Source of the DNA: Pseudarthrobacter sp. NamE5
GTDB lineage: Bacteria > Actinomycetota > Actinomycetes > Actinomycetales > Micrococcaceae
Assembly (NCBI RefSeq): GCF_005796225.1
Contig: NZ_VAHO01000001.1
Coordinates: 248,001-312,000 of the forward strand
Direction of reading: 5' to 3'
DNA: 64,000 bases
Part shown: in pieces, positions 32,798 to 49,735 of the stretch
Layout: each line of letters opens with the position of its first letter
Numbering within the stretch: position 1 is the first letter of the stretch
Translations under genes and position numbers: made by a program
Notes under the pieces: generated by a model
Seen by the model: the letters and a program-made list of their open reading frames with translations, nothing else
The model's database searches: none
Told to the model about the DNA's origin: nothing

Positions 32798-33003
32798 GTT
32801 CTCACTGGCCCTCGCGTAGGGTGGCGTCCTCTCCCAGACTATCCACGGGAAATAGAGAATCCTAGGGATCCTCCCACTATGACCTTGAAGGCGACGCCGA
32901 TTCAGCCCATTACATGGGATGGAGCGCCGAAGAACCTTTACATGTCATGGCCCGAAAAGATGGGCTGGGTTTACAACTACCCCAACCCTTCGTTGCCCCT
33001 AGG

Positions 33004-33150
33004 ATGAGCCTCATGAGTTCTGATGATGAGAAGGATCCTCCTGTACCCGCCAATGTGGTCGGTGCTCCAAAGCGCGTCCACCGCGATCGCGTTAGGTACG
33101 AGTACGACCGGTCCGACCACGAGGCCCCTGCAGAGGCGCCCAACGGCTAA
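33004..33150 (+). CDS. Small acidic protein upstream of the ECF42 module (copy 1)
   Basis: Short reading frame of 48 codons (an ATG at 33013 gives 45) rich in Asp, Glu, Pro and Arg, with DPPVPANVVGAPKRVHRDR in the middle. A paralogue of the same length is encoded at 48866, upstream of the second DGPF copy, with the motif DPPVPA-LVGAPKR-HRD kept while other residues differ. Protein-level conservation with nucleotide divergence suggests it is translated. No ribosome-binding site is strong and no known family is recognised. Confidence 0.5.
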   Translation: MSLMSSDDEKDPPVPANVVGAPKRVHRDRVRYEYDRSDHEAPAEAPNG

Positions 33151-33247
33151 GACAGACAAGCCGATCCGCCTTGAGGCCAGCGCTCCAAAAATGGGCGCCG
33201 GAGCTCGCGGCAGTTGTGTCCGAAAATATTTATTTTTTTGTAGTCGT

Positions 33248-33274
33248 TGTCGATCCGGTGCTTGCCCGTTCGAC
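33248..33274 (+). promoter_or_regulatory. Putative ECF42-type promoter (copy 1)
   Basis: TGTCGA at 33248, a 17-bp spacer and CGAC at 33271 lie about 50 bp upstream of the DGPF start. TGTCGA is the -35 reported for ECF42 sigma factors, which usually activate their adjacent DGPF gene. The same elements and spacing are kept in the second copy at 49070. Confidence 0.6.
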
Positions 33275-33323
33275 GCCATAGTAGAAGGACGCATTAGGCG
33301 TTCTCATCAAAAGGAGAAGAACC

Positions 33324-33749
33324 GTGAAGTTCATGCTGATTATGCGCGCTACGGCAGAGGCCAAGAAGGCCTACGAAGCTGCGGACATCGAACAGATCAT
33401 CAATGCCATGGGCGCCTATAACGAATCGCTCATGAAGGCCGGGGTGCTGCTGGCCGGTGAGGGGCTCGCCGATGACATGAGCGACGCGTTCGTTGTCGAC
33501 TTTTCCGCGGAGGAGCCCATCGTTACCGACGGCCCGTACGGGGAAACCCATGAACTGTTCAACGGGTTCTGGATCATCCAGACCGCCAGCAAGGAAGAAG
33601 CGGTCCAGTGGGCAAGCCGCTGCCCCCTGGGCCCGGGAAGCAAACTCGAAGTCCGCCGCGTGACCGATATGAGTGACTTTGAAGACTTCGCCGACAACGA
33701 GTTCCTCCAAAAGGAAGCCGGCTGGCGCGAGGAACTCAACCAGCCCTAG
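33324..33749 (+). CDS. DGPF/YCII-domain protein (copy 1)
   Basis: YCII-related protein of 141 residues with a ferredoxin-like fold in known relatives. It starts MKFMLIMRAT and has the family motif as TDGPYGETHELFNGFWII (DGPY here for DGPF). The GTG start has an AAGGAGAAG ribosome-binding site. It lies 4 bp before the ECF sigma gene, the standard DGPF-ECF42 pairing, and its biochemical role is unknown in the family. A near-identical copy lies at 49147-49572, with only a few amino-acid differences. Confidence 0.9.
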   Translation: MKFMLIMRATAEAKKAYEAADIEQIINAMGAYNESLMKAGVLLAGEGLADDMSDAFVVDFSAEEPIVTDGPYGETHELFNGFWIIQTASKEEAVQWASRCPLGPGSKLEVRRVTDMSDFEDFADNEFLQKEAGWREELNQP

Positions 33750-33753
33750 CGAT

Positions 33754-35004
33754 ATGGTTGACAAGCACCTCGCCGCCGTGCCGGCGATCCAGCGAACCCT
33801 GGACGCCGTGTGGCGGATCGAAAGCGCGCGGATCATCGCAACGCTTGCCAAAGTGACCGGCGACGTGGGTTTGGCGGAAGATCTCGCCCAGGAAGCCCTG
33901 ATCGATGCCCTCACGCAATGGCCCGAGTCAGGCGTCCCGAATAATCCGGGCGCCTGGCTCACGGCCGTGGCGAAACGCAAGGCCATCGACGCCTGGCGCC
34001 GCCGCGAGCGGCTCGACGAACGCTACCGCGCGATGGCCCACGACCTCACGGAAATGACCGAGGACCAGTGGCAGCCGATCCCCGACGACGTGCTTCGGCT
34101 CATCTTCACCGCCTGCCACCCCGTGCTCTCGCGCGAGGGCCAGGTCGCGTTGACGCTGCGAACCGTCGGTGGCCTGACCAGCGAGGAAATCGCACGCATG
34201 CTGCTCGTTCCCGTCGCCACCGTCCAGCAGCGCATCGTCCGGGCAAAGAAGACTCTCTCGGCCGCCCGCGTACCCTTCGAACCCCCCGAACCAAACGAGT
34301 GGAACGGGCGGCTGAACGCGGTACTGGCGGTGCTGTACCTCATCTTCACCGAAGGCTACGCCGCCACAACCGGAGAACGGTGGATCCGCACAGACATCGC
34401 CAACGAAGCCCTGCGCCTGGCCCGGGTGCTCGCCGGCCTGCTCCCCCGGGAGCCCGAAGTCCATGGACTCGTCGCACTCATGGAATTCCAGGCATCCCGG
34501 TTCCCAGCGCGCGTGAACCACGACGGCAGCCCGGTCCTGCTCGCCGACCAGGATAGATCACGCTGGGACAGGACACAAATCGGCCGTGGCCTGACGGCAC
34601 TGGCACGTACCGACGCCCTGGGCCGCGGACGGGGAAACTACACCCTGCAGGCTGCCATCGCCCAATGCCATGCCACCGCCCCCAGTTTCGAAGATACCGA
34701 CTGGCACAAAATTGTCCTGCTCTACGAGGCCCTCGGACGCCTCGCACCCAACCCCATCGTCGAACTCAACCACGCCGTAGCGGTCTCCATGGCCACCGGA
34801 CCCGCCGCCGCCCTGAAAATCGTGGACCGCCTCGTCGCCGGGGGCGCCCTCCGCCGCTCACACCTGCTGCCCAGCATCCGCGGTGAACTGCTCTCCAAGC
34901 TCGGAAGAACCGCCGAAGCTAAGAAAGATCTGCAGCAGGCAGCCGCTCTAACCACCAACGAACAACAAAAAGCCGTCCTCCTCGCCAAAGCAGCCACACT
35001 CTGA
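33754..35004 (+). CDS. ECF sigma factor of the ECF42 type with C-terminal TPR-like extension
   Basis: Alternative sigma factor of 416 residues. Region 2 is at about 20-90 (EDLAQEALIDALTQWPESGVPNNPGAWL, read here in part as EDLAQEAL and NPGAWL). Region 4 (LTLRTVGGLTSEEIA, VATVQQRIVRAKK) ends near 180. A long helical C-terminus follows with TPR-like repeats (YEALGRLAPNPIVELNHAVA). ECF42 factors have no anti-sigma factor, and this extension is needed for activity. The ATG at 33754 is chosen because the earlier in-frame start lies inside the DGPF gene. A truncated copy lies at 49577. Confidence 0.9.
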   Translation: MVDKHLAAVPAIQRTLDAVWRIESARIIATLAKVTGDVGLAEDLAQEALIDALTQWPESGVPNNPGAWLTAVAKRKAIDAWRRRERLDERYRAMAHDLTEMTEDQWQPIPDDVLRLIFTACHPVLSREGQVALTLRTVGGLTSEEIARMLLVPVATVQQRIVRAKKTLSAARVPFEPPEPNEWNGRLNAVLAVLYLIFTEGYAATTGERWIRTDIANEALRLARVLAGLLPREPEVHGLVALMEFQASRFPARVNHDGSPVLLADQDRSRWDRTQIGRGLTALARTDALGRGRGNYTLQAAIAQCHATAPSFEDTDWHKIVLLYEALGRLAPNPIVELNHAVAVSMATGPAAALKIVDRLVAGGALRRSHLLPSIRGELLSKLGRTAEAKKDLQQAAALTTNEQQKAVLLAKAATL

Positions 35005-35226
35005 GACTTTCCGACGGGACGGGAAAAGCCCGCAATCGCTCACGCAGTGTCCCGCCGAACGGTGGAGCGGGCAGGCAGGCGTTGCCAGGGCCGCCACGCG
35101 GCAAAAAAACTTGAGCCCATCTTGAGACTTTGTTCCCTTCGTGGTCTTTAGGATCAGGACAGTGCCGACCGGCGCTGAACGGGCGGCTGCTGGGGCAGCC
35201 TTTGACGATTGCGGGGACCGATCGCC

Positions 35227-36450
35227 GTGTTCAAACTGATGAAGCTCCTTACTGTCACCATGACCGTCGCTCTCGGACTGATATTCGCTGGACTGCAGCC
35301 AGTACTGGCAGCACCGGCCGCGAGTATCTCCCTCAGCCCGGCCAGCGGACCCGCCGGATCTGCAGTGACGGTGAGCGGCACCGGTTTCAAGGCCTCCGTG
35401 TCCGGAACTGTCGCTGCTGGCCCGACGGCCTTCACTTTCCGGACCACGGCGACTGGGGCGTTCAGCACCTCGATCACCATCCCGTCGTCCGCTGCCGGGA
35501 CTGTCACCGTCACGGCCAAAACCTCATCCGTCAAAGCCTCTTCGGTGTTCACCGTGATGCAGGCCGCTCCAGAGCTGCCGCCGGTCAGCACGGCCGCCTT
35601 GCGGTTCGGGGTTGGGGTTCCGGGTGGGCCCTTGGCAGCCGGGGAACTGGACGAGGTCTCACGGCTGGCGGGTGAGAGCCCGTCCAGTGTTTTGTTTTAC
35701 AAGGATTTCCTGCAGGTGCCCCCGATTGCTGAAATGAATGCTGCGCGGGCGCGCGGTGCTGTTCCGCTGGTGACCTGGGAGCCGTGGGCCTGGGGAGGAG
35801 GGGTGGACCAGCCCGTTTATGCGCTGGACCGCATAGCTGCCGGGGACTTCGACGCCCACCTCAGCCGGTGGGGACAGGCGCTGGCTGCCTGGGGTTATCC
35901 GGTCCAGCTGCGGTTCGCGCATGAGATGAACGGCGACTGGTACCCCTGGGCTGAGGGGGTCAACGGCAATGGTGCCGGCGACTACGTGCAGGCGTGGCGG
36001 CACGTGCATGACGTTGTGGCCGCCGCCGGGGCGTCCAACGTGTCGTGGGTGTGGAGCCCGAACGTTCCCTATTGGGGATCCACCGACCTGGCCGGGCTGT
36101 ACCCGGGGGCCGGTTACGTCGATGTTGTGGCGCTTGACGGGTACAACTGGGGCACGTCCGCTTCGTGGAGCGGGTGGATTTCGCCGCAGGATCTCTTCGC
36201 ACCGGGAATCGCCGAACTGCGGTCGTTGGCCCCGGGGCTTCCGATCCTCATCGCCGAAACGTCTTCCAGTGAGCTGGGCGGCTCCAAGGCTGCCTGGAAC
36301 AGCGATCTGGTCTCCTACCTGGCGGCGCAACCGGACGTGGTCGGTTTCGTCTGGTTCCACATTCGAAAGGAAGCAGACTGGCGCATCAACAGCAGTGACG
36401 CCTCGGCGGCCGCCTTCAAATCTGCTTTGGCGGCACGCCGGGCGTCATAG
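35227..36450 (+). CDS. Secreted GH26-like glycoside hydrolase with N-terminal Ig/IPT-like domain
   Basis: Secreted protein of about 407 residues. It has a signal peptide ending LAAPAA, an Ig/IPT-like domain (about 40-115, from LSPASGPAGSAVTVSG) and a GH26 TIM barrel. The acid/base Glu is in RFAHEMNGDWYPW and the nucleophile in ILIAETSSSE. GH26 enzymes cut beta-mannan or related beta-glycans. The GTG at 35227 was chosen for the GGGGA upstream; an ATG at 35239 or a TTG at 35209 are possible. It is convergent with a sorting-signal peptide and a GT2 gene, so it may process the polymer that GT2 makes. Confidence 0.85.
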   Translation: MFKLMKLLTVTMTVALGLIFAGLQPVLAAPAASISLSPASGPAGSAVTVSGTGFKASVSGTVAAGPTAFTFRTTATGAFSTSITIPSSAAGTVTVTAKTSSVKASSVFTVMQAAPELPPVSTAALRFGVGVPGGPLAAGELDEVSRLAGESPSSVLFYKDFLQVPPIAEMNAARARGAVPLVTWEPWAWGGGVDQPVYALDRIAAGDFDAHLSRWGQALAAWGYPVQLRFAHEMNGDWYPWAEGVNGNGAGDYVQAWRHVHDVVAAAGASNVSWVWSPNVPYWGSTDLAGLYPGAGYVDVVALDGYNWGTSASWSGWISPQDLFAPGIAELRSLAPGLPILIAETSSSELGGSKAAWNSDLVSYLAAQPDVVGFVWFHIRKEADWRINSSDASAAAFKSALAARRAS

Positions 36451-36462
36451 ACCGTCAGGCGG

Positions 36463-36618
36463 TTACGGCCGGGCTGCCGGGTTGCGGCGGACCAGGGCGA
36501 TCAGGGCCGCGCCGATCAGCATGATGCCCAGCGCGGTCAATAGCCCTGCACCAACGTTCAGCCCGGTGTAGGCCAGGGCGGCGCCGGAAGCGGGGAGGGT
36601 GGTGTTCATTCCATACAT
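36463..36618 (-). CDS. 51-residue peptide consisting of a LAxTG-type sorting signal
   Basis: Small ORF with an LAYTG pentapeptide at residues 15-19, a roughly 23-residue hydrophobic segment and a positively charged end (VRRNPAARP). This is the full layout of a class E-type cell-wall sorting signal, but there is almost nothing in front of it: 14 residues and no export signal. It starts 2 bp after the GT2 stop on the same strand, so it is cotranscribed. It could be a remnant of a wall protein or a real membrane micropeptide. A sortase-like gene lies at 57.4 kb, but of a different class. Confidence 0.6.
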   Translation of the reverse strand: MYGMNTTLPASGAALAYTGLNVGAGLLTALGIMLIGAALIALVRRNPAARP

Positions 36619-36620
36619 CG

Positions 36621-37808
36621 TTAGTTGATTTCCTCTGCTGTGTATTGGGCTTCCCAGCGGTCGATCCGCCGCCGGGTGATCTTGGTGGTCAGGACTGCGC
36701 ACCAGGAGGCCATGAACCACCCGGAGCGAAGCCACATGAACAGTTCCTGCGGGAAGAAGGAGGCGGCAATGACGATGTCCTTCCAGTCGCGGTGGGGTAT
36801 CCGCAGCGCGCGCTTGATGTCCAGCGCGACGAACAGAATTGGCACCAGCCACCAGAACAGGACGACATGGAACACTCCCAGGGACACGGAGAGGATCATG
36901 ACGCCGATCCACAGCAGCTTCAGGAAGACACCGAGCAGGCCCATCGCCTGCTGGGCCCAGTCCCGGAGTGTCAGCCGGTTCACCCCCAGGTCCAGCAGGT
37001 CCTCCACGGTGCCAACCTGCCATTTCATCCGCTGTCCCCAGAGGGCCTTGAGTGTTTTCATCGAATCGGTGTAGGCACGCACGTCGGGCGAGACCTGGCA
37101 GATGAAGCCGAGTTCCCGGATCCGGTACGTCAGTTCGAAGTCTTCAACCTGGGAGGTGTAAACCCACGGGCCTTCCCTGTCGTCCCGTGCAGCCACTTGG
37201 CGGAGAACGGCGTTGTTGATGGCGCAGCCAGTCCCGGCCAGCACGCTCGTCCTTCCCCGGCGCAGCGCAGTGTCCGTCCAGGTAGCGAACTCAGCTTTTT
37301 GAAGCCGGCTCAGCAGCCCGGGGTCCTGCATGGTGAACTTCGACGACGAGCCCCCCAGAAGCGCGCCCGCTTCGCCACTGAATTCGCTTTCCCATGCTGC
37401 CAGCGCATTGGGCGGCAGCACGGTGTCCGCATCAAGGCATACCACTACGTCCGCGTCATGGGCGTATGCCGCCCATGCACGGTTCAGCGCCTCGGACTTG
37501 CGGTGTTCCAGACGGGGCAGCTCCATCACCGTCACCGGATATGCGCGGGCAACCGCAGCCGTTGAGTCCGTGCAGCCATTGGGAACAACGACGACCAGGT
37601 CCGCGGGCCGGCTCTGGTGCATCAGCCCATCCAGTGTCGCCCCTATCGAGGCGGCCTCGTTATAAGCCGGAACCAGCACCACCACACGCAGGCTCGCGCA
37701 GTCAGGGCCCCCCGCCGGTCCTGCGGCCGAATACGTCAGTTTGCCGCAGTCGGCAGGGGCGCCGTGGCGGACCTTCTCTTCAACCGCCGAGGGCAAAGCA
37801 ACGGACAC
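36621..37808 (-). CDS. Family 2 glycosyltransferase, processive membrane type
   Basis: Membrane glycosyltransferase of 395 residues. The GT-A domain has VLVPAYNEAASIG, the DAD motif in VCLDADTVLPPN, TGCAINNAVLR, the EDFELTYR block and QRMKW, which stands for the QxxRW motif of processive enzymes such as cellulose, hyaluronan and N-acetylglucosamine polymerases. Three to four hydrophobic segments follow the catalytic domain. The GTG start has a perfect AAGGAGG ribosome-binding site directly after a hairpin. With GH26 next to it, synthesis of an extracellular beta-glycan is likely; the sugar is unknown. Confidence 0.88.
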   Translation of the reverse strand: MSVALPSAVEEKVRHGAPADCGKLTYSAAGPAGGPDCASLRVVVLVPAYNEAASIGATLDGLMHQSRPADLVVVVPNGCTDSTAAVARAYPVTVMELPRLEHRKSEALNRAWAAYAHDADVVVCLDADTVLPPNALAAWESEFSGEAGALLGGSSSKFTMQDPGLLSRLQKAEFATWTDTALRRGRTSVLAGTGCAINNAVLRQVAARDDREGPWVYTSQVEDFELTYRIRELGFICQVSPDVRAYTDSMKTLKALWGQRMKWQVGTVEDLLDLGVNRLTLRDWAQQAMGLLGVFLKLLWIGVMILSVSLGVFHVVLFWWLVPILFVALDIKRALRIPHRDWKDIVIAASFFPQELFMWLRSGWFMASWCAVLTTKITRRRIDRWEAQYTAEEIN

Positions 37809-37820
37809 GGGAGCCTCCTT

Positions 37821-37857
37821 CTGGATTTCGAAAGCCCAGCGGGCCTTCGAAATCCAG
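37821..37857 (-). promoter_or_regulatory. Long hairpin next to the GT2 ribosome-binding site
   Basis: Perfect 12-bp arms (37821-37832 and 37846-37857) enclose an inner GCCC/GGGC stem with one mismatch and a 3-base loop. The 3' arm ends immediately before the AAGGAGG of the GT2 gene. It could be an RNA structure controlling translation or a protein-binding palindrome (TTCGAA occurs in each arm). Function is inferred. Confidence 0.6.
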
Positions 37858-37969
37858 CTAATAACCCTTGTCTCAGAATTCGCCCCTTGGCGGCATCAAG
37901 GTTCAGTCAATCACCGCAATTCCTGATCAACGGCCCTTGATCATTTATTGAGCTGAATAAAAAAATCAA

Positions 37970-38452
37970 TCAAACACGCATTGGCGCGTGACGGTTCTCA
38001 CTAATTTGTAGGTTCTCGGCGAATTGGTTCAGGCAGGAAAGCTGCCTTGTTGTTGTGGCGAGAAGGCGCTGACCAGCATCGTTACCTGTCCGGGTGAGGT
38101 TGCCATGGTGTACGTAATCGGCGGGGGCCAAATTCGCATAAGGGCATTTGCCCTCTTTGCCTGCGCCGCCAAAGAGATAGGAACCGTTTATGCCGCCAGC
38201 GGAGTTCAGCCAAATAACGCCACCGGGTTTGCATCCGTCCCGGAGTGTCAGGTGCTGCTCATTTTGAGGAACTCTTGCGGGTATTTGTGGCACTTCTTGA
38301 GTGACGCTCTGCAGTATGTATATCTGCCAGGAAGAGCCGTTGACTAACCCGCTAGTCCAACTCGGTTCTGGCAGCCATTGAATAAACAGGTCCAGGGCAT
38401 CAGCTCGAAACCACCAGTCCGGAAGCTCCCCGTGCTCGCTCAGCGGAAGCAC
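37970..38452 (-). CDS. Possible hypothetical protein
   Basis: A 160-codon frame in a region of lower GC than its surroundings, on the same strand as GT2. The GTG start has AGGTGA a few bases upstream. The composition is protein-like (Trp, Asn, Tyr and Gln well represented) but there is no signal peptide, membrane segment or known motif. A 107-codon frame on the opposite strand overlaps it. I cannot exclude that the region is non-coding. Confidence 0.3.
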   Translation of the reverse strand: MLPLSEHGELPDWWFRADALDLFIQWLPEPSWTSGLVNGSSWQIYILQSVTQEVPQIPARVPQNEQHLTLRDGCKPGGVIWLNSAGGINGSYLFGGAGKEGKCPYANLAPADYVHHGNLTRTGNDAGQRLLATTTRQLSCLNQFAENLQISENRHAPMRV

Positions 38453-38474
38453 CGTTCACCTGCAGGAAAGGTCC

Positions 38475-38945
38475 GTGCTGCCCCTCATGACACCGGGTGC
38501 TCCCAGAGAACGGGAAAAGCCAACAGCTTTGGGAACAATGCCCCTATCCAAGGCAGCCCCAACCACTGTGATCGAGCTTCAAAGCATTAGGGAACTGACC
38601 GATGAAACGGACAGTCCTGACATCGCCCTGCAGTTCCTAATTGAGTATCTGAATATGCTGCCACGCAGGCTTCAGCGAATCCTGCATGGGCTGCGCGGGA
38701 GCGACAGCGAAGCCTCAATGGACGCCCTCAGGAGCCTCAAGATCACTTCCGCCATGGCCGGGACACATGCTATTGAGGCTGAATGCCGCGCCCTTGAAGC
38801 GCTGGTCCGGGCGGGAAACTTCGACGCTGCCAACCACGAGGCAGCAACCCTGAGCGCCAGCGTGCTCGACTTGTTCGAGGGCCGGGACCAGGTGTATGAA
38901 CACGCCCGGCAAGACCTGCTGCAAGTAGAAGACACAGCAAGCTGA
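38475..38945 (+). CDS. Hpt-like protein without the phospho-accepting histidine
   Basis: All-helical protein of 156 residues. The block LRSLKITSAMAGTHAIEAEC resembles the core helix of histidine phosphotransfer (Hpt) domains, H-x-L-K-x-x-S..., but the His position is Arg (R-S-L-K). It could be a degenerate or pseudo-Hpt that binds a response regulator without transfer. GTG 38475 has an AGGAAAGG ribosome-binding site; ATG 38538 is an alternative. It is convergent with an orphan histidine kinase at 39.1 kb, which may be related in function. Family assignment is tentative. Confidence 0.6.
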   Translation: MLPLMTPGAPREREKPTALGTMPLSKAAPTTVIELQSIRELTDETDSPDIALQFLIEYLNMLPRRLQRILHGLRGSDSEASMDALRSLKITSAMAGTHAIEAECRALEALVRAGNFDAANHEAATLSASVLDLFEGRDQVYEHARQDLLQVEDTAS

Positions 38946-39087
38946 CCTCCGTGTGCTGGCAGGCTTCTCGCCCGACATTGCCCTGTGGCCTCGCTAACCG
39001 AAACCGGCACCCCGGTCAGAGACTTCTAACCAGGACGAAAGCTCCATCCTTGCAGCTCACCGCCTACATCATCAGGAAGCTCGGCGG

Positions 39088-40314
39088 TCAGTCCGCGGGG
39101 AAGCTGACCGCGACCGTGGTTCCCCCGCCAGGAGTTTCTGAAAGCGTGAGCTCCCCGCCGTGGGCCTTGGCAATGCTGCTGCATGTGGCAAGGCCCAGGC
39201 CTGTGCCGGCGCCGTCGCCTTCACGGTGAAGCCGAACGAGGGGTTCCAGTACTTTTGCCCGGTCTTCGGCTGCAATACCCTTGCCGTTGTCCGCTACAAA
39301 AACAGAAGCGCCGTGATAGTTGGAGGCTCCGCTGATACGGATTCGAAGGTCGCGGTTAGGGCTGCGGTAGTTCATCGCATTGGACAGCAGATTCTGCAGC
39401 AAGGTCCGCAGCTGGCCCTTGTCCGCGTAAACACGCAGGTCCTGCACCTCCACCATGTTCTCTTCGTTGATGCCCAGGTCCCACATCGCCTCATCGACAG
39501 CAGTCCGGAGAGACACGTACTCCGGCTGGATGCCGCCACCGACACGGGAGTAGCTCAAAACGTCTTCGAGCATCCCGAGCATGCGCCGCCCGCACGCGTC
39601 GATCTTGTCCAGGTCATCGGCGGCACCGGGGACAGCCTGGATGTTGGGGTCGTCCTGCAGCATCTCCAGATAGCCCAGCATTGTGGTCAACGGAGTCCGC
39701 AGGTCATGACTGACTCGGCCGGCGAACCCAGCGAGCCGGGCGTTGCTTTCCGTCAGCTCGGCATAGGCCCGGTCCAGCTGGGCCGTCCGGTGCTGCAGCT
39801 CCAACAGCTCCACTACCTGTTTGGCGAGGACTTCCAACATGTCCACCTGCCCCGGGCTCAGCTCATGGGCAGCTTCCGAGAAGACACACAACGTGCCCGG
39901 CACGAATCCGGATTCCGTCTCCAAGGGAATTGAGGCGTAGAAACGGACTCTGCCGATCTCACCGGTGACAAAAGGACTGTCCGCAAAACGGGGATCGCGG
40001 GAAGCGTCCGGAACTACGGTCTTCTCACGGGACAGGAAGACTTTGGCGCACATCGAATCCTCGCGGGAGCACACTCCGGGGTCCACGCCCCACGCCCCGA
40101 TCTGATGCTGGTGCCCGGCACTGATGATGTTCACCACGCCAAACGGTGCGTCGGACAACTGGGTCGCCAGCCGCACCAGGTTCTGCAGCCCATTCATCAC
40201 TGCCGCGTTGGGCAACAACGGTGAATCCAGGGATGGGTCCAGCCCGTACTCCAGCAACTCAAGGTCGCGATCGATGTCATTGCTGAAAGCCAGCCGTCCA
40301 GCTGCACCTGCCAT
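39088..40314 (-). CDS. GAF-domain sensor histidine kinase
   Basis: Soluble sensor kinase of 408 residues. A GAF domain (about 30-180) has an internal SREDSMCAKVF and is followed by a short coiled coil and HisKA with the phospho-accepting His in RVSHDLRTPLTTMLGYLEML (written as RVSHDLRTPL). HATPase_c motifs are LLSNAMNYRSP (N box), VADNGKGI (G1) and GAGTGLGLA (G2). No membrane segment is present, so it senses a cytoplasmic signal. No response regulator lies next to it, so it is an orphan; the Hpt-like protein is the only two-component-type neighbour. Confidence 0.9.
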   Translation of the reverse strand: MAGAAGRLAFSNDIDRDLELLEYGLDPSLDSPLLPNAAVMNGLQNLVRLATQLSDAPFGVVNIISAGHQHQIGAWGVDPGVCSREDSMCAKVFLSREKTVVPDASRDPRFADSPFVTGEIGRVRFYASIPLETESGFVPGTLCVFSEAAHELSPGQVDMLEVLAKQVVELLELQHRTAQLDRAYAELTESNARLAGFAGRVSHDLRTPLTTMLGYLEMLQDDPNIQAVPGAADDLDKIDACGRRMLGMLEDVLSYSRVGGGIQPEYVSLRTAVDEAMWDLGINEENMVEVQDLRVYADKGQLRTLLQNLLSNAMNYRSPNRDLRIRISGASNYHGASVFVADNGKGIAAEDRAKVLEPLVRLHREGDGAGTGLGLATCSSIAKAHGGELTLSETPGGGTTVAVSFPAD

Positions 40315-40414
40315 TAGAAAACCCCCAGTCCACTATCCGCCCCCCCGCGAAGCATACCCGCCCGCACTTCCAGTACGTAGCGGCCGTGCCGGGCCAGCTC
40401 AGGATCAACCTATT

Positions 40415-40442
40415 CACCACTCACCACTCACCACTCACCACT
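40415..40442. repeat. Four perfect tandem copies of CACCACT
   Basis: Heptamer CACCACT repeated four times without interruption in the 320-bp promoter region upstream of the histidine kinase. It is in non-coding DNA and could vary in copy number by slippage. No protein known to me is tied to it. Confidence 0.9.
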
Positions 40443-40649
40443 GTCAGGCAACCTTCACTGGGACCGGCTCTCCAGTCGTCAGGGCCGCCCGCACAAGTGG
40501 AAAGCGACGCGCGGATAGATATCGGTTGGAGGCATGCACAAGTAGCACCGTCTGACGTAGTCAATCGGTCCATTGAGCCGGATGGCGTCGTGGCGTCTTA
40601 TTGCTTATGACGCCTCCGATGCCGTCGCATAACCGTGGAAGGAAACTCA

Positions 40650-41998: not shown

Positions 41999-43130
41999 TA
42001 GCACTCCTCTCCAGGGCCTCTCCCCGAGCCTGAACCGAGAGTCGATGTTGACGTTATGTATGGCTAGGGTCTTCGTATCTTCTCATCAGGTGCATCAAGT
42101 GCGGGGCGTAGCCATCAGGAACTACGCCCTGCATCCGCTCAGAGAACGTCCTCCTGCACCGCAGGATCCTTCACCAGGTCAGGGTGCCAAGGAGGATGGC
42201 GACGGGCGGTCACCGGTGCCTGGTCTGGCGCTGAAGCGGGCAGAGTTCTACTCACAAGTAATGAAGCTTCGACGTAGGTTTAGCGAAGGATTCAGTGGGA
42301 TGACCCGCGCTTCCCCGCCCGAGCTTTACCCCCAACCGTCCGGAACGCAGCCCGATGCCGCGCTGCCGTTCAGTCGGCACGCACAGGGCCGTCGCATCAG
42401 CCGTACCCGGAGGAGACCTTAGGGCGGTGACGACGACGACTCGAACTTCCGATTCAGAATTGCCGCTCCGGACGGAACAGTGATGGCAACGTCACGGCCG
42501 TTCCCCGACAAGCAGTCCGCAGTTGCGGCATCGCCGATATCCTTGAATATGCTGGTATGGGCCATATCACCGACCTTTGCCTGACACCGGCGGACATGCC
42601 GCCTCCGCGGCCGACGACGACCCGGCAGCGCTTCACCCCGGTGTCAATCTACAGTGCCCGAGTACCCGGCTGGCGCCCTATCTCTGTTTCATCACACCCC
42701 CACCATCCTCTCGCCCAACTAATGGGCACCACGCCGTGTTCCTGATATCTCGCTGGATCAGTGGCAGTATTACAGCTCCAACGTGGAGCCAGCCGTCCGG
42801 AAGTTGATGAATCTAACTCAGGGTGGTGACTGTGACCCGGCTCCAAGAGCGGGGTTGCTCGGGGACGAGCCCGAGGCGGGGAGCCACTGGCATCCGCTCT
42901 GGAGGGACGGGCCGATCGCTACTCCATGGTTCGCTCCCATGAGGTTGCGGTCCTCTCGTGGATAGCCAGCCGGGTGAGGGCCGCGGCGCCGGCACGTTAA
43001 GCGATCTTCGTCGCTTATCAGGTGGCCTCCTGGGAGTTCTGAACTCTTACGGCATAATTTATGGGCGTGTCCGACACTTTCCCTGGAGCGGTACCACCAG
43101 GCTCCGAAGTCCGGACCTTGAGGAGCTGAC
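41999..43130. other. 1.1 kb with no recognisable gene
   Basis: Short open frames exist on both strands, but none has a ribosome-binding site, protein-like composition and family motif together. Probably eroded coding DNA at the start of the decay zone. A small inverted repeat (GGGCGTAG / CTACGCCC) occurs near 42100-42130. Confidence 0.4.
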
Positions 43131-43511
43131 ATGGAAGATCAAGGCCACAACGGCACGACCGGCACGCTTAAGCTTTCCGGGCAGATCCTGCATTTGAAGT
43201 GGGAACCCGGGTCGGTGGTCAGGGAAAGTGACGCAAGAGCGCTCATGCAGCGTGCCAGGGCTCTCAGTGCAGGGCAAACCCTGCCCCTGCTGGTAGAGAT
43301 GACAGGCATGACATGGATCGACCAAAGGGCGCAGGAGGCCTTCGCCGCACCTTGGCCCCTTCTGCGGGCGGCCATCGTCGGGTCTTCCCCGGTCGATGAA
43401 ACCATCGCCAACTTTTACACGGCACGTCATCAACCGGGGCATCCGACACGGTTCTTCACGAACCTGCACGAGGCGATGGCTTGGTTGGTGAAAGACCCCT
43501 CGCTGCCCTAG
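43131..43511 (+). CDS. STAS/SpoIIAA-like small protein (DUF7793-like)
   Basis: A 126-residue protein with a good ribosome-binding site (GAGGAG) before the ATG. The pattern LPLLVEMTGMTWIDQRAQEAF, then AAIVGSSPVDETIANFY and TRFFTNLHEAMAWL, matches small STAS/SEC14-like proteins common in Arthrobacter. Their function is unknown and often guessed to be regulatory. Intact, with no partner gene beside it. Confidence 0.7.
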   Translation: MEDQGHNGTTGTLKLSGQILHLKWEPGSVVRESDARALMQRARALSAGQTLPLLVEMTGMTWIDQRAQEAFAAPWPLLRAAIVGSSPVDETIANFYTARHQPGHPTRFFTNLHEAMAWLVKDPSLP

Positions 43512-44165
43512 CGCCGTCGTAACAGGTACCCCGCCTGCAGGTCTTCAAGCAGGGCTGATGCGATTTTGCCGTGTGAGTCTTTTATCGAGATGTGTCTTCA
43601 AAAGGGCAAGCTGTCGCGAACCGTGAGGCACAATTGTCGGCAGCAGCCGCCCCCGCCTTTTGACAGCCAGCAGGCAGAACCAAGGCGGGATGTCGGCAGA
43701 AGCTCATCAGGGCAGTCACAGTCAAAAGCGCTACGTCCTGTCAGTGCTGGTTCAGCTCCCGCTGTGCAGAGGCCATGTCCGCGGCAAGCGGTGTAATGGG
43801 TGCGGGCTCCTGATGTACTGACGTCAGGAGCCAGCCCGTCCCGTGGCAGCTACCCCTGAGGGAGAAACGTCGGTCTTCCCGGACAAGGACGAGATGCCCC
43901 TGAGTAATTTTCCGGCATGCCAAAAGCTGGTGCCATGGCCGGGCGAGGAATTCGACGAAAACAGTACGCCCTGCGGCGCACAGCCCCCTTGGCTGGAAAT
44001 GCCACCATAGAGCACCCAAAAGGGGCATTACGAAACGGGTGAAAATCGCTTCCGCCCATGACGCGACGGGGGGTTGGTGAGGGAGCCGATATAGCCGATG
44101 TGGAAGATCCACGATGGGCTGCTGGCCCCGCGATCATGGGTTCCGGCCCGAAGCGAGGTGGATGT
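43512..44165. other. 650 bp without a confident gene
   Basis: A 123-codon minus-strand frame (43741-44112, GTG) exists, but two further long frames overlap it and it shows no motif. I see no RNA gene or mobile element. Likely degraded sequence adjoining the isomerase fragment. Confidence 0.35.
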
Positions 44166-44768
44166 TTACGATGTTGCCATGGGCATGAGGATGGCGCGGA
44201 GGGCTGTAAGTGCCTCTGGGAGTTCGGCGAGATGGGGGTGCCAGGCTTTTTCCCATTTGGGGCAGGCCCAGAACGTTTCATCGCCCTGGTTTTTGCTGAT
44301 CTTTTCAGCCATACCTGCGATAGCGGAGATCGGTATGGCGCCTTGGCCCGGAAGGGTGAGAGTGACGCTGTCTGGGCCGGCCCCAATGATGGCATCTATG
44401 AACTGGCAGTAGGCCAAGGATCCCCGCACTGCGTTTGCAGTGTTCTCGGGCTGTTCCCCGTGCCGCCAGGGATGGAGGACGTCCCAGATGGCCTTTGTGG
44501 TCCCGCTGGGTTCGACGAGGCGCAGGATCCGGGCGATGTCTGTCCCGGTGGGGTGGGAGTCATGGGTTTCGAGCAGCAATTGAACGTTCAGGGATGACGC
44601 AACCTCTGCTGCGGCTGACAGCCGCCGGCCGGCGGTTTCGTCCCAGTCCTTGGCCTTACCATTGCCAGGGTCAGCGCTGGGGAAGTTTCTGACGCCGCCG
44701 ACCCCAAGGGCGGCGGCGAGTTCGAGCCTTTCGTGAAGGTCGCGGATAACGTTCGCGTTTGTGCCCTT
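44166..44768 (-). pseudogene. C-terminal fragment of a xylose isomerase-like TIM barrel
   Basis: About 200 codons are open after a TAG at 44769-44771 and encode the last two thirds of a sugar phosphate isomerase/epimerase: ERLELAAALGVGGVRNFPS, then the metal-site block LLLETHDSHPTG and ISAIAGMAEKI. The N-terminal strands of the barrel are missing and no ATG/GTG start with a ribosome-binding site exists. The fragment abuts a second truncated gene (SpoIIE-like) on the other strand within 36 bp, so a deletion or rearrangement joined two remnants. Confidence 0.7.
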
Positions 44769-44803
44769 CTACCCGACACCCCCAGCCTCTGAGGGGATAC
44801 TAA

Positions 44804-45428
44804 GTCCACGCGTACACGCGACCGGCAGGGGACCTGTCCGGGGACTTTTACGACTGGCAAGTGCATGGCAATGCTTTGCGGATCACCGTGGCCGACGCCA
44901 TGGGCAAAGGGACCGGTCCGGCGCTTCTGGCCGCCGCCGTACACACCCACCTGCGCTGGTCTGGACAAACCCTCCCCGGCGACGCCCTTGCTGCGGTCTC
45001 AACCTACCTGGAAAAGGACCTAGCCCTTGATGACCTATTCGTCACCGCATTTAGCGCAGACCTCCGACACCGGGACCATCCGCTACTCGAACGCCGGATA
45101 CGGACTCGCTCACCACCTCACAGCCGAAGGGAAAATGAATCAGCTCTCCCCCAGCGGCCCGCCCTTGGGAATCGTGTCCGGGCAACACTGGGCAACAGAG
45201 GAGCTGCATCTGGAACCGGGCGATTCCCTGATCACCCCCAGCGATGGTGTCCTCGAAGTCGCCCATGACAACCTGGCCGAACTTCAGACCGAGCTGACGG
45301 CAATCGCCGCCGCAGTTAACCCAATCGCAGCCATCAAGGCGCTCATCAACGGACTATCACAAGCCACTGCCGACCTGACACTCCTCATGGTCCGCCGTTT
45401 TCCCCAGAAAGGGGACCCTCTCGGTTAG
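44804..45428 (+). pseudogene. Truncated, frameshifted SpoIIE/PP2C-type phosphatase
   Basis: Encodes the catalytic part of a SpoIIE-like serine phosphatase: GDLSGDFYDW and VADAMGKGTGPALLAA carry the metal-binding Asp residues. After a frameshift near 45060 it continues as TIRYSNAGYG, GPPLGIV, GDSLITPSDGVLE and ADLTLLMVRR. The sensor N-terminus is missing; a TAA at 44801 closes the frame. Such phosphatases act on anti-anti-sigma factors. Loss of the reading frame and truncation both say it is dead. Confidence 0.75.
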
Positions 45429-45482
45429 CCGCAAACCGAGGGTTGGGGCACAACCAGCCGCCGGGGCTCGTTGGAGGGAGGA

Positions 45483-45956
45483 TTAGGCGATGCCGTCATT
45501 GGGGTTTTGCCAGCCTTCACGCTTCTTCAGCAGCTCAATGTCTTCTTCCTCCAGTTGCCCCGGGTCGATGTCGGCGGTGCAGTACTTGCACTTTATGGCG
45601 TCAATTGCCACGAATTCCTTGCAGTAGGGGCATTCCTGTTGGCCCTGGGCGCGGAAGTTGCCCATGCCAAAGCGCTTGAGGAGCTTAACGATCCCGAACA
45701 GCACCAGGGCCAGCAGCAGGAACCTGATTAGCACGGTGATGAAGCTGCCGTATCTGATCTCGGCGTCGTTGACAGTGAAGCTCATCTGACTGAAGTCCGG
45801 AGCCCCGAAGATCGCCGCAACGAACTGCAGCAGAATGTCGTTGGCCAGGCTGTCAACGAGAGCGGCGAAGGCCGTGCCGATGATGAAGCCGAGGGCGAGA
45901 TCAAACATGTTGCCGCCCATGGCAAAGGCTTTGAATTCTTTCCACATATTCGACAT
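45483..45956 (-). CDS. mscL: Large-conductance mechanosensitive channel with zinc-ribbon tail
   Basis: Pressure-relief channel of 157 residues. N-terminal amphipathic helix (MWKEFKAFAMGGNMFDLALG), two membrane helices (about 17-45 and 70-92) and the cytoplasmic helix region are normal. Unusually, residues 109-126 form C-x2-C-x10-C-x2-C (ECPYC...KCKYC), a zinc-ribbon-like knuckle, followed by an acidic helix. Most MscL proteins end earlier with a simple coiled coil. ATG 45947 is an alternative start. The gene is intact inside a decayed region. Confidence 0.93.
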   Translation of the reverse strand: MSNMWKEFKAFAMGGNMFDLALGFIIGTAFAALVDSLANDILLQFVAAIFGAPDFSQMSFTVNDAEIRYGSFITVLIRFLLLALVLFGIVKLLKRFGMGNFRAQGQQECPYCKEFVAIDAIKCKYCTADIDPGQLEEEDIELLKKREGWQNPNDGIA

Positions 45957-46327
45957 GTCATGATGCTAAACCCGTTGACGCCTAGGTCCGAGTGCGGCCG
46001 CCTCTAACGCGCCGGGCCCGGCCGCAGGCTCCCTGGTAAGCAGAGGAATAGGAGGCGGCCTCCCGTGCGTCCCGGATCTTCAGGGGCGCCCGATGACCTG
46101 ACAAAGCGGCCTTTCTCCCCGTCGAGCGACACCGCTGAACAACTCGCTGCGCTTGCGAACAAGGGCGCGGTGAGCCGCGCGACCCGAGCCGACGCCCTAC
46201 TGCCCCAAGCAGGCCTGCGTCATCAACCGACTCAACACTTTCCGGTATCCAGCGCCTGCGCGGCTGCGTAGATGCTGCATCCGGGACTTCCCCCGCACAT
46301 CGACGTGAGTGGTTCGCCAGTGAATGC
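45957..46327. other. 370 bp without a gene
   Basis: No convincing coding sequence. It contains the mscL upstream region and the 3' flank of the DUF1801 pseudogene. Confidence 0.4.
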
Positions 46328-46762
46328 TCAGTCCGAGCGGTTAGATGCTGTTGACCGAGTTTCGTTAAGCGAGTGTTGAAGGAGCTCGCGCAGCGCGCTG
46401 CGGTCCACGGTGGTCAGCCGGGTGAGGTACAGGCATGCCTTGCTGGCGCGGTGCTTGCCAATTCGGCCCATGAGGTCAGGCCAGCGCTCTGAGAAGTCGT
46501 TGATGAGGTAGATCGTATGCTTCGCTGGCCCGGACGCGAAGGCGAGCAAAGGAGCGCGGCCCCCGTGGCCGCTCTCGTATCGGTATACGTACTCGCCGAA
46601 GCCGATGATGCGGCCGGCCCATACTACAGGCCGTTCACCGCTGACCTCGGCCAGGAGTGCGAGCAGTTCGTCGGCCTCGACACGTCGGGGGCCCTGGAGC
46701 CGGTCGAGTACCTCCTAAACCGGTTGATCGGACGGCGACATTGCCGGCGGCTTCGCTGCCAT
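46328..46762 (-). pseudogene. DUF1801-type gene interrupted by an in-frame TAG
   Basis: From ATG 46762 the frame reads 15 codons (MAAKPPAMSPSDQPV), then TAG at 46717-46715. It then continues without a break to 46328 with the DUF1801 (YdhG-like) pattern: EVLDRLQGPRRVEADELLAL in part, VVWAGRIIGFGEYVYRY, HTIYLINDF and LGRIGKHRASKACLYL-like (MGRIGKHRASKACLYL). A single base change would restore it. Either a recent pseudogene, a sequencing error, or translation restarts at a downstream GTG/TTG. Confidence 0.75.
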
Positions 46763-46887
46763 GGATCTCCTCGCTAAAGGGCTGCACATGGCCACAGTAG
46801 TACGGGCGCAGGCTACGAAACACAGACCTGCCGCTACCCGTGCAGTAACCCTGGACCCATGGTATTCCGCCAGGCAACCGCCGGCCT

Positions 46888-48162
46888 TCAGAGGCGGGGC
46901 TGGCAGGTGTCGGGGCCGTAGCGCAGCCAGTCCGGCAGGGCGGCGGTGAAAGCGTCACGGACATCTGGGGTGTTGGTGACCGTCCAGTCCACTCTCCCTT
47001 TGACTTCCACTTCTTCTTTGTCCCATTCAAACCAATTGATCATTTTCAGCTGCGGGAACCGCGTGGCGGTGGCGGGGTCGAAAAGCTGTTCCCACCAGGC
47101 CTGCTTGATTGGAAGTTCCCCTTCACCGCCGGCTCCGGGGGCGAAGAGCGCTGCTGTTTCCGGTACGGCTACGGGCTTGCCGTGCGCTTCTCCGTAGACC
47201 TGGTAGAAGTCGGGAAGCAGGCTGTCATCACCGTTCGCGCCGACGTAGTTGCCTGTGAGCTGGTCAGCGAATTTGCCCGGCTCCGGAAGCTCGTTTTCTC
47301 CCCACGGGTACTCTAATCCCCAGTGGTAAAGGGACATCCCGACCCAGTCCACCGCGTCATTGCCCGGGTAGTACGGGGCGTAGGCGTCGTCGTTCATGGT
47401 CAACGCACCGTCGGCGTCGGTGTCCAGGGCAGTGAAGTCCCCGGTGCCGGGTTTGGTTTCGTACTGGCCTCCGGCGAACGGGTAGCCGCCGCCGTAGTTC
47501 GGCGCCCACATCATCGCCGAGCCCGGGGCGTGGGTGTGCACCGCCTCGGCTAGGGTCCGGAACGCCATAATGTAGAGGGCAGGCTGCTGGGACCACGGGT
47601 ACCAGGAGCCGTTCATTTCATGGGCGAACCGGACAATCACCGGGACGCCGTCGGCATTGAACTGCGCCAGGTCCCTGGCCAACGCCTCGGCGGAGTCGGG
47701 GGTGACCGCAGCCAGCCCGTTCACGGGTTCGAGGGTCAGCAGCATCATCTGGCCGTCAGCCCGGATCTGCTGCACAGCCCGTTGCAGATCAACCTTTTCC
47801 TGCCCCGTGTACGGGAATCCGGTGAAGGACACGCTCACGGCCGGTTTGCGGCCCAGGTCCGCAGCGTAAGCCGCCAAGGGTTTGGCCTGCCAATCGAGGT
47901 TCACTCCAAACAGCGTCCCGGTCTCCGGGACCATCTCGGCCCGGTCAAGGACCTCGCAGACAGAGGCCGCCGGCGCGGTCCCTAGAGTCTGGGTCTGCTG
48001 CCGTTGCTGCTCATGCGCCCTGGCCGACAGGCTGCCGTAGATCCCGGCAGCACCTACTCCCCCGGCCACCAGCACCACTACCCCGGCCAGCGCCACAACC
48101 TGTCGCGTCTCCGACAAACCCTTCCGCCCGGACCGGTTCTTTTTCTGAGTCCTTCCGGACAT
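46888..48162 (-). CDS. Membrane-anchored GH26-like glycoside hydrolase
   Basis: 424 residues. A basic cytoplasmic N-terminus (KKNRSGRKG) is followed by an uncleaved-looking membrane anchor (about 23-46), then a GH26-type barrel. The acid/base Glu is in RFAHEMNGSWYPW and the nucleophile in VAVPETAALF. A DTDADGALT loop looks like an EF-hand calcium site inserted near the middle. It is related to the GH26 protein at 35.2 kb in the first motif but differs elsewhere. It probably acts on a beta-mannan-like glycan at the cell surface. It is single, with no polymerase beside it. Confidence 0.85.
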   Translation of the reverse strand: MSGRTQKKNRSGRKGLSETRQVVALAGVVVLVAGGVGAAGIYGSLSARAHEQQRQQTQTLGTAPAASVCEVLDRAEMVPETGTLFGVNLDWQAKPLAAYAADLGRKPAVSVSFTGFPYTGQEKVDLQRAVQQIRADGQMMLLTLEPVNGLAAVTPDSAEALARDLAQFNADGVPVIVRFAHEMNGSWYPWSQQPALYIMAFRTLAEAVHTHAPGSAMMWAPNYGGGYPFAGGQYETKPGTGDFTALDTDADGALTMNDDAYAPYYPGNDAVDWVGMSLYHWGLEYPWGENELPEPGKFADQLTGNYVGANGDDSLLPDFYQVYGEAHGKPVAVPETAALFAPGAGGEGELPIKQAWWEQLFDPATATRFPQLKMINWFEWDKEEVEVKGRVDWTVTNTPDVRDAFTAALPDWLRYGPDTCQPRL

Positions 48163-48250
48163 GCCTGTATAACCCCCATTTGACCTGCAATTTCTCCCAT
48201 CCTAGGCACTGACTGGGCTCTGCGGGGCCGGGTAGGGCAGGATGCTGGGC

Positions 48251-48526
48251 ATGACGAATCGTGCAACCGAAACGTCAAGCGCCGGGGACACCCTGCGGGT
48301 GCCATTCTGGATCGTCCGTGCCGGGGTCGTCGTGGGCGCCTTCTGGGCACTGGCCGGTGTAGCCGTTGGCGTATGGGCCCGGCAAAACACCAAGCCTGAC
48401 AGGGCCGGCCCCTGCGACACCACAGCGGTTCCTCACCCCCGTACTGCCGGTAAGCATCCAACAACGACCTCACCCGGGCACGGGCGCCGATGGAGGAAGG
48501 CATGGCTGAGCATTCCATCTCAATAG
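48251..48526 (+). CDS. Small membrane protein, probably truncated
   Basis: From ATG 48251 (AGGA upstream) the frame encodes a polar N-terminus and one strong hydrophobic segment (WIVRAGVVVGAFWALAGVAV), then a Pro/Thr/Arg-rich tail that reads like out-of-frame DNA. The 3' part overlaps the PAS remnant on the other strand, so the original C-terminus was probably replaced. Divergent from the GH26 gene. Confidence 0.4.
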   Translation: MTNRATETSSAGDTLRVPFWIVRAGVVVGAFWALAGVAVGVWARQNTKPDRAGPCDTTAVPHPRTAGKHPTTTSPGHGRRWRKAWLSIPSQ

Positions 48527-48838
48527 CCATGGCGCGGGTCAAGTCGATCATGAACCCGTGAATGGTCACGACCTTGCCCGCCACGTCCCGGTCCGCCTCG
48601 GCCACGGTCAGCACGCGGTGTTCCCGGCCCTTACTGTCGAGGATGCGGTGAAAGTTGGAGCCCTGGCCGCCCTCCGTGGACAGGATTTGAATGAGCTGGC
48701 GTGCCGCTTCCCGGTCATCAGGGTGCTGTGGGCGAGCACGAGCTCAACGGTGGGAACCACCTCGCCCCGGCTGTATCCGTGAATTCGGTACAAGCCCTCG
48801 GACCACTCCAGCATCGGGCTCCCATCGTGGTGTCGCAT
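48498..48838 (-). pseudogene. Frameshifted PAS-domain gene remnant
   Basis: Minus strand from 48838 encodes MLEWSEGLYRIHGYSRGEVV, the start of a PAS fold typical of PAS-ANTAR proteins. After a one-base loss near 48726 the frame shifts and continues as DDREAARQLIQILSTEGG, FHRILDSKGREHRVLTVAE and VVTIHGFMIDLTRAMA. The ANTAR domain expected next is absent. The break next to the duplicated ECF module suggests that rearrangement removed the rest. Confidence 0.7.
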
Positions 48839-48865
48839 CTAACTGAGCCTTTCGTTGCCCCTAGG

Positions 48866-49018
48866 ATGAGCCTCATGACAGCTGATGATGACAAGGATCC
48901 TCCCGTACCCGCCGATCTGGTCGGCGCTCCAAAGCGAATCCATCGGGATCAGGTCGCCGAAAAGTCTGACCGATCCGACCACCATGGCCCGGCTGACGGG
49001 CCGAACGACCAAGACTGA
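48866..49018 (+). CDS. Small acidic protein upstream of the ECF42 module (copy 2)
   Basis: 50-codon paralogue of the small ORF at 33004. Shared features are the MSLM start, DPPVPADLVGAPKRIHRD and DRSDH. The tail differs (GPADGPNDQD). A second ATG at 48875 is possible. It precedes the DGPF copy by about 130 bp, including the putative ECF promoter. Function unknown. Confidence 0.5.
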   Translation: MSLMTADDDKDPPVPADLVGAPKRIHRDQVAEKSDRSDHHGPADGPNDQD

Positions 49019-49069
49019 CAAGCCGATCAGGCTATCGTCGTCAGGCATTTTGAAAATATTTCTAGTCCT

Positions 49070-49096
49070 TGTCGATCCGGCGCTTGCCCGTTCGAC
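49070..49096 (+). promoter_or_regulatory. Putative ECF42-type promoter (copy 2)
   Basis: TGTCGA at 49070, a 17-bp spacer and CGAC at 49093 reproduce the element at 33248 while flanking bases differ. It could still be read by the intact sigma factor at 33.8 kb. Confidence 0.6.
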
Positions 49097-49146
49097 GCGA
49101 TAGTAGAAGGACGCATCAGGCGTTCTCATTATGAAGGAGAAGAACA

Positions 49147-49572
49147 GTGAAGTTCATGCTGATTATGCGCGCTACGGACCAGGCCAAAAAGGCCTACGAA
49201 GCTGCGGACATCGAACAGATCATCAATGCCATGGGCGCCTACAACGAATCCCTTATGAAGGCGGGGGTGCTGCTGGCCGGTGAGGGGCTCGCCGATGACA
49301 TGAGCGACGCGTTCGTTGTCGACTTTTCCGCGGAGGAGCCCATCGTTACCGACGGCCCGTACGGGGAAACCCACGAACTGTTCAACGGATTCTGGATCAT
49401 CCAGACCGCCAGCAAGGAAGAAGCGGTCCAGTGGGCAAGCCGCTGCCCCCTGGGCCCGGGAAGCAAACTCGAAGTCCGTCGCGTGACCGATATGAGTGAC
49501 TTTGAAGACTTCTCAGACAACGAATTCCTCCAAAAGGAAGCCGGCTGGCGCGAAGAACTCAACCAGCCCTAG
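49147..49572 (+). CDS. DGPF/YCII-domain protein (copy 2)
   Basis: 141 residues, almost the same as copy 1: the differences I see are at ATDQAKK versus ATAEAKK and DFSDNEF versus DFADNEF. GTG start with GAAGGAGAAG upstream. The TDGPYGETHEL motif is kept. The adjacent sigma gene is broken, so this copy would depend on the intact ECF42 factor elsewhere. Near identity points to recent duplication or gene conversion. Confidence 0.88.
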   Translation: MKFMLIMRATDQAKKAYEAADIEQIINAMGAYNESLMKAGVLLAGEGLADDMSDAFVVDFSAEEPIVTDGPYGETHELFNGFWIIQTASKEEAVQWASRCPLGPGSKLEVRRVTDMSDFEDFSDNEFLQKEAGWREELNQP

Positions 49573-49576
49573 CGAC

Positions 49577-49735
49577 ATGGCCGACAAACCCCTGGGCACC
49601 TCCACACTAGAGGTCCAGCGCACCCTGGATGCAGTGTGGCGGATCGAAAGCGCCCGGATCATCGCAACACTGGCCAAGGTGACCGGGGACGTCGGCCTGA
49701 CCCTCGGGATAACGCGTACTCTGGCTATGTCGTAA
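49577..49735 (+). pseudogene. 5' fragment of the ECF42 sigma gene
   Basis: Starts MADKPLGTSTLEVQRTLDAV and follows the intact sigma factor through ARIIATLAKVTGDVGL, where the copies part near 49701. Eleven unrelated residues and a stop follow. Only the first helices of region 2 remain, so no sigma activity is possible. Confidence 0.85.

Follow-up and report, generated by a model that had tools for sequence, protein, structure and literature searches.

The 4.06-Mb genome of the soil bacterium Pseudarthrobacter sp. NamE5, whose nearest named relatives are Arthrobacter and Pseudarthrobacter, carries two copies of a small gene module within the 64,000-nucleotide stretch of DNA analysed here (the window). 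Each copy contains, in the same order, a small open reading frame (ORF), a TGTCGA-N17-CGAC element, a DGPF gene (YCII, PF03795) and an ECF42-type sigma gene, with copy 1 extending over 33.0–35.0 kb and copy 2 over 48.8–49.7 kb (Table 1). The homologous stretches, at approximately 32974–33869 and 48836–49698, are direct repeats of about 0.87 kb each. In the window the exact element is present twice compared to 0.17 times expected, a count reached in 2 of 100 shuffles, and both DGPF proteins score above the PF03795 gathering cut-off of 24 bits. The repeats, the element count and the Pfam matches thus confirm a preliminary description of this DNA, which had placed the module near 33 kb and again near 49 kb. 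Both copies lie on one 425-kb contig and their DGPF genes differ at 15 of 423 bases, indicating that the second copy is not an assembly doublet. Identity between the copies is 96.5% for the DGPF gene and 93% for the element and leader (71 nt), but 86.9% for the conserved start of the sigma gene (84 bases) and 78% for the small ORF block (198 nt), so that the DGPF genes are nearly identical and their flanks less so, as had been described.

Table 1. Features of the two module copies, in window coordinates.
Feature	Position	Strand	Evidence
Small ORF, copy 1 (48 aa, MSLMSSDDEKDPPVP...)	33004..33150	+	ORF list, copy comparison, homologues
ECF42-type promoter element, copy 1	33248..33274	+	Motif match
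Possible leader hairpin GGACGC-ATTAG-GCGTTC, copy 1	33287..33303	+	Folding, swap test
DGPF/YCII gene, copy 1 (141 aa, GTG start)	33324..33749	+	PF03795 E 8.5e-15, 55.4 bits
Intact ECF42-type sigma factor (416 aa, likely ATG)	33754..35004	+	Sigma regions 2 and 4, DUF6596
Small ORF, copy 2 (50 aa)	48866..49018	+	ORF list, copy comparison
ECF42-type promoter element, copy 2	49070..49096	+	Motif match
Leader hairpin GGACGC-ATCAG-GCGTTC, copy 2	49109..49125	+	Folding, swap test
DGPF/YCII gene, copy 2 (141 aa, GTG start)	49147..49572	+	PF03795 E 4.5e-15, 56.3 bits
Remnant sigma ORF (52 aa; ~41 sigma codons + 11 foreign)	49577..49735	+	Homology to copy 1
Rearrangement junction: sigma homology left, methyltransferase block right	49698..49699	.	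ISL-72 match begins 49699

The sigma gene is intact in copy 1 only. Its protein matches sigma-70 regions 2 and 4 (PF04542, E 1.6e-11; PF08281, E 3.3e-11), and the likely start is the ATG at 33754 rather than position 33673 of the mechanical ORF list. One criterion for ECF42 is a TPR-rich C-terminal extension of approximately 200 residues; the C-terminal extension found here matches DUF6596 (E 1.3e-38), with no TPR model among the matches. A YCII/DGPF gene next to the sigma gene, itself an ECF42 trait, is present directly upstream. The name ECF42 is based on architecture and context. The ratio of nonsynonymous to synonymous divergence (dN/dS) of the intact gene is 0.11–0.15 against five relatives, indicative of purifying selection. 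The sigma gene of copy 2 had been described as stopping after about 40 codons, and we find that homology to copy 1 ends after approximately 41 codons, at 49698, the frame then adding 11 codons for a total of 52 residues. Neither Pfam nor NCBIfam gave a match for this remnant at E 0.001, so that both sigma-70 regions went undetected. The DNA from 49699 onward is approximately 82% identical to a methyltransferase block of ISL-72 (G161), where the block lies on a different contig from the DGPF gene. Because the match to ISL-72 begins exactly at 49699, the 52-residue ORF is the scar of a rearrangement with its last 11 codons foreign, the exact edge of the junction resting on one relative since the other genomes with the block match only further in.

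Streptomyces members of ECF42 reportedly recognize promoters of the TGTCGA... type. In the whole genome we found, at E 1e-10, one intact ECF42 of this kind, in addition to the remnant. An extended motif, TGTCGATCC-N8-CCCGTTCGAC, written from the two window sites themselves and with spacing and letters fixed, had no third site at up to 3 mismatches in the 4.06 Mb, and a backwards control gave 0 sites; likewise, the looser TGTCGAT-N13-GTTCGAC matches within this genome only the two window sites. Taken together with the purifying selection on the sigma gene, these data suggest that the intact sigma factor most likely serves both DGPF promoters. The earlier proposal that one sigma factor drives two DGPF genes is thus supported in part, by the sole intact ECF42 and the lack of a third motif site, and it is the best reading we can offer of the sequence.

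We also examined why the two DGPF genes are so alike. The preliminary description had left this to selection or gene conversion, and silent divergence helps to narrow the choice. The copies differ from each other by a dS of 0.137 and a dN of 0.011, compared to a dS of 0.42–0.62 between each copy and the six close relatives P2b, NamB4, Alg241-R88, G195, G132 and RYN_96, and of at least 0.88 against three more distant relatives. At third codon positions the copies differ at 12 of 141 sites in DGPF but at 17 of 56 in the flanks, which comprise 28 small ORF codons plus 28 codons from the beginning of the sigma gene (p 2.4e-4). Comparison with P2b gives no such contrast for either copy 1 (36/141 in DGPF, 11/56 in the flanks; p 0.46) or copy 2 (38/141 and 17/56; p 0.72), and the flanks of the two copies are therefore about as diverged as those between species. 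A DGPF tree groups the two copies with support of 98/96. When polarized with seven relatives, the 15 DGPF differences fall to copy 2 in 10 cases and to copy 1 in 4, with 1 undecidable; among the copy-2 changes, only E12Q clearly changes the DGPF protein on its own. Because the silent contrast between DGPF and flanks is found between the copies and not against P2b, the DGPF copies seem to have been homogenized by gene conversion, and the alternative of selection at the protein level alone fares poorly.

A comparison of the locus in related genomes, which the preliminary description had called for, indicates that DGPF repeatedly outlives its adjacent sigma gene. Among the best 80 of 230 related loci from named genomes, the sigma gene adjoining DGPF is intact in 70, broken in 5 (L036 of NamB4, L041 of ISL-72, L046, L059 and L077) and not found in 4 (L053, L054, L064 and L091), while L052 ends too early to score. 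DGPF thus stands without an intact adjacent sigma gene at 9 of 79 assessable loci, and the promoter motif is present at 8 of these 9 and at 75 of the 80 overall. The number of independent events is smaller than 9 because L053 is closely related to L054, and L064 to L091, and the single stop of L046 and the apparent single frame break of L077 are possible sequence errors. L053 and L054, which come from metagenome-assembled genomes (MAGs), retain approximately 15 sigma codons followed by another gene, which we take to be glyoxalase-like. A further case, outside this set, is G132, in which DGPF is followed by approximately 20 codons of sigma homology and none after; elsewhere in G132 another DGPF is accompanied by an intact ECF42, the only one present, and both DGPF genes carry the motif.

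A parallel to the window is found in Lolliginicoccus levis and L. lacisalsi, in which an orphan DGPF with the motif lies in a syntenic block of approximately 16 kb (88–89%) and a separate locus contains motif, DGPF and ECF42. The orphan DGPF is under purifying selection (dN/dS 0.093), which suggests, if the shared absence reflects one old loss, that selection kept the gene after its sigma factor was lost. These genomes differ from the window in that no trace of the adjacent sigma gene was found and in that their DGPF proteins are of two types, 72–76% and about 50% identical to the window protein. Persistence of DGPF without a linked sigma gene argues for a role of DGPF beyond serving that factor.

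From the observed anatomy, the junction, the counts of motifs and sigma genes and the contrast in silent divergence, we infer a course of events that we regard, as a whole (two modules, a cut sigma gene, a shared regulator and converted DGPF genes), as reasonably probable. Copy 1 is a complete operon of promoter, DGPF gene and sigma gene. In copy 2 a DNA rearrangement cut the sigma gene after approximately 41 codons and joined it to the unrelated methyltransferase block, with promoter and DGPF gene kept. The single intact sigma factor would most likely recognize and transcribe from both promoters, raising its own operon in a positive feedback and, in trans, a presumably functional second DGPF gene. 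Gene conversion would have made the DGPF genes, and not the flanks, alike, and copy 2 would since have altered mainly at silent sites.

Several points weigh against this explanation. Because spacing and letters were fixed in the motif search, sites that diverge further would have escaped it. NamB4 retains DGPF and the motif and no intact ECF42 was found there, so a kept motif is no proof of a working sigma factor; the loss in NamB4 looks recent, as the remnant has a dN/dS of 0.134 against the window's gene. Each Lolliginicoccus genome has a second, more distant ECF42-like gene (44–46%), and this parallel is therefore not strictly one of a single sigma factor. In Sinorhizobium meliloti, overexpression of the ECF42 factor RpoE10 left the adjacent YCII gene unraised (PMC6180224). 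With respect to conversion, several of the DGPF differences could be polarized only by a narrow margin, the longest stretch of identity inside DGPF does not reach significance (p 0.12), and the tree of the 84-base sigma piece does not resolve, with sister copies not rejected (p-AU, approximately unbiased test, 0.106).

A different account would have copy 2 as an unused remnant, or as a gene read by another sigma factor, with its promoter kept by inertia. In its favor, motif and DGPF are kept and no intact ECF42 was found in NamB4, where the loss looks recent, and in the MAG of L053 (G216), which may be incomplete. The purifying selection on the orphan DGPF of the two Lolliginicoccus species and the mostly silent nature of the differences in copy 2 argue against it, however, and we consider it unlikely.

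Alternatively, a plain and fairly recent duplication might have occurred with no conversion, the break in the copy 2 sigma gene having been followed by more rapid decay of the flanks of that copy. The p-AU value for the 84-base piece is compatible with such a history, and divergence from P2b is slightly greater in the copy 2 flanks (17/56) than in the copy 1 flanks (11/56). On the other hand, in the sigma piece the third positions of copy 2 and copy 1 are similarly far from five relatives (8/6, 7/5, 9/8, 10/9 and 5/11 differences, of 28), and slow change at third positions is not a general feature of DGPF. We accordingly view plain duplication as rather unlikely.

Copy 2 might also have been acquired, through transfer or recombination, from an unsampled near relative whose DGPF resembled that of copy 1, with no conversion inside this genome. 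The module position varies among relatives, and the left neighbor of copy 2 (46318–46798) is 94% identical to sequence at the single DGPF locus of NamB4, both of which fit such an origin. A further short stretch is common to the copy 2 and NamB4 loci (48148–48251, 79%); the intervening GH26 gene and small ORF stretch are absent from the NamB4 locus, and the left neighbor was not found in 6 other genomes tested. DGPF is found at E 1e-60 or better in 20 of 206 genus genomes, and the close DGPF type (at least 89% protein identity) in 8, this one included, with two close-type genes in this genome only. Against such an origin, neither copy shares more than 90.5% DNA identity with any of the 7 other close-type genomes; the remaining genus genomes, compared by protein only, are at most 73% identical or fall below E 1e-60. 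A transferred copy 2 is thus improbable in our estimation. Finally, the 52-residue remnant is very unlikely to modulate the sigma factor as a functional peptide: it retains the start and approximately 41 codons, and early-cut sigma genes occur in G132 and in the two related MAGs (L053, L054) too, but it has no domain match, its tail derives from another block, and the break points vary between genomes, NamB4 having lost the first part of the gene instead, with frame breaks further on.

In addition to the coding regions, we examined the leader between the element and the DGPF start codon, in which a stem, usually with a 5-base loop, is possible at a near-fixed place. From 79 leaders we used 60 of 50–60 bases, 52 remaining once near duplicates were removed. 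At least 5 pairs can form at the hairpin place in 51 of the 52, and 30 of the 52 rank in the bottom 5% when compared with shuffled versions of themselves. In a swap test, the leaders' own 5' and 3' halves gave a mean of -10.48 kcal/mol compared to -8.23 for swapped halves (z -7.35, 0 of 20000 permutations); a similar result was obtained with the 41 leaders less than 75% identical (z -7.5), and a control region went the opposite way (z +3.0). The predicted stem, then, changes in a compensating way. Because its sequence changes while pairing is kept, the data speak for an RNA structure over a protein-bound DNA palindrome.

Alignment-based analyses gave a weaker signal. RNAalifold on a MAFFT alignment of the 52 leaders returned no consensus stem. 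When pairs were counted over the named stem in the alignment, 70.5% of cells were paired compared to 67.0% in shuffles (1/500 as high) and 37.5–49.6% when the stem was slid; cells with both sides changed numbered 24 compared to 16.6 (10/500), and the covariation score was 0.187 compared to 0.155 (20/500). Pairs with both sides changed (335/500) and pair types (315/500) showed no excess over shuffles. We attribute the weakness of these counts to alignment gaps that disturb the register; the swap test, which was clear, requires no alignment. The lowest-energy fold of the whole copy 1 leader differs from the hairpin of Table 1, and an Rfam search of the window gave 0 matches at the gathering score.

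The hairpin extends beyond the close relatives. Among more distant DGPF leaders of the genus (L008–L019, 54–56% identity), 11 of 12 lowest-energy folds show a stem of other sequence in the corresponding position, and leaders of the 70–73% DGPF type have the hairpin in 13 of 13 cases; the stem-loop is seen in many leaders of ECF42-type DGPF genes, across both window copies and the sets L036–L115, L008–L019 and L120–L130. Scanning 198 genomes from the phylum for the pattern turned up 15 sites outside this genome, of which 8 have DGPF and ECF42 downstream (L186 with part of a DGPF only; L177 being a genus member). The stem is clear at 4 of the 8 (L177, L182 and the near-identical L188 and L189), weaker at L178 and absent at L184, L186 and L187, indicating that the hairpin is common but not universal. 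Of the 7 other sites, L179 folds well too. L179 and L181, of the same class, have a common motif site and similar leaders, with no convincing DGPF or ECF42 match downstream of the motif site in either; this site is possibly another target of the motif. As guesses at its function, the hairpin may guard the 5' end of the mRNA or keep the ribosome site open. We put forward tentatively, and with some doubt, the wider proposal that the stem-loop, approximately 15 bases past the -10, is regulatory, that DGPF has a role of its own, for which cells retain it once the linked sigma factor is lost, and that in this genome conversion maintains the likeness of both leaders and both DGPF genes, which one sigma factor reads. 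A covarying leader hairpin provides a specific new handle on possible tuning of the regulon.

The duplication is real and well bounded and belongs to an ordinary family, and it is unusual in combining a retained promoter with a truncated sigma gene and apparent conversion. The ECF42 factors of Streptomyces venezuelae (Sven_0747, Sven_4377 and Sven_7131) and ECF-10 of Pseudomonas putida have a YCII-domain neighbor, and they share with the window sigma factor the ECF core and the long C-terminal extension (PMC8999054). The window genome differs from these in that, of its two DGPF promoters and genes, one has lost most of its own sigma gene, and in that the DGPF genes have apparently been homogenized. 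RpoE10 of S. meliloti resembles the window system in its upstream YCII gene and its few targets, but the genes that respond lie in other operons; its authors suggest that the motif of the unresponsive YCII gene overlaps the start site (PMC6180224). How ECF42 factors switch on is not settled, PMC8999054 naming the YCII/DGPF neighbor only as a likely part of the mechanism. Two promoters in a genome with a single such sigma factor provide a natural test that is ready to use. In the open-licence library searched, we found no paper linking ECF42 or an ECF sigma factor with DGPF, and none on a YCII-related promoter and leader. The sole sequence match of the DGPF protein in the PDB is PA1349 (1s7i; E 7.9e-9, residues 3–115), a YCII-type protein whose entry is labelled hypothetical.

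Other features of the region were also considered. In P2b and G132, homologues of the small ORF (DDDKDPPVPADLVGAPKR-like, 48–50 residues) lie immediately before DGPF, and others lie apart from the close DGPF type in G002, G209, G173 and G154; it is a predicted small protein family with its own distribution. Two GH26 genes (35209–36450 and 46888–48162), each adjoining one module copy, were considered as part of the duplication and rejected, their identity being 26%. A two-copy direct tandem repeat of 34 bases (91%) lies at 51701–51768 of the window.

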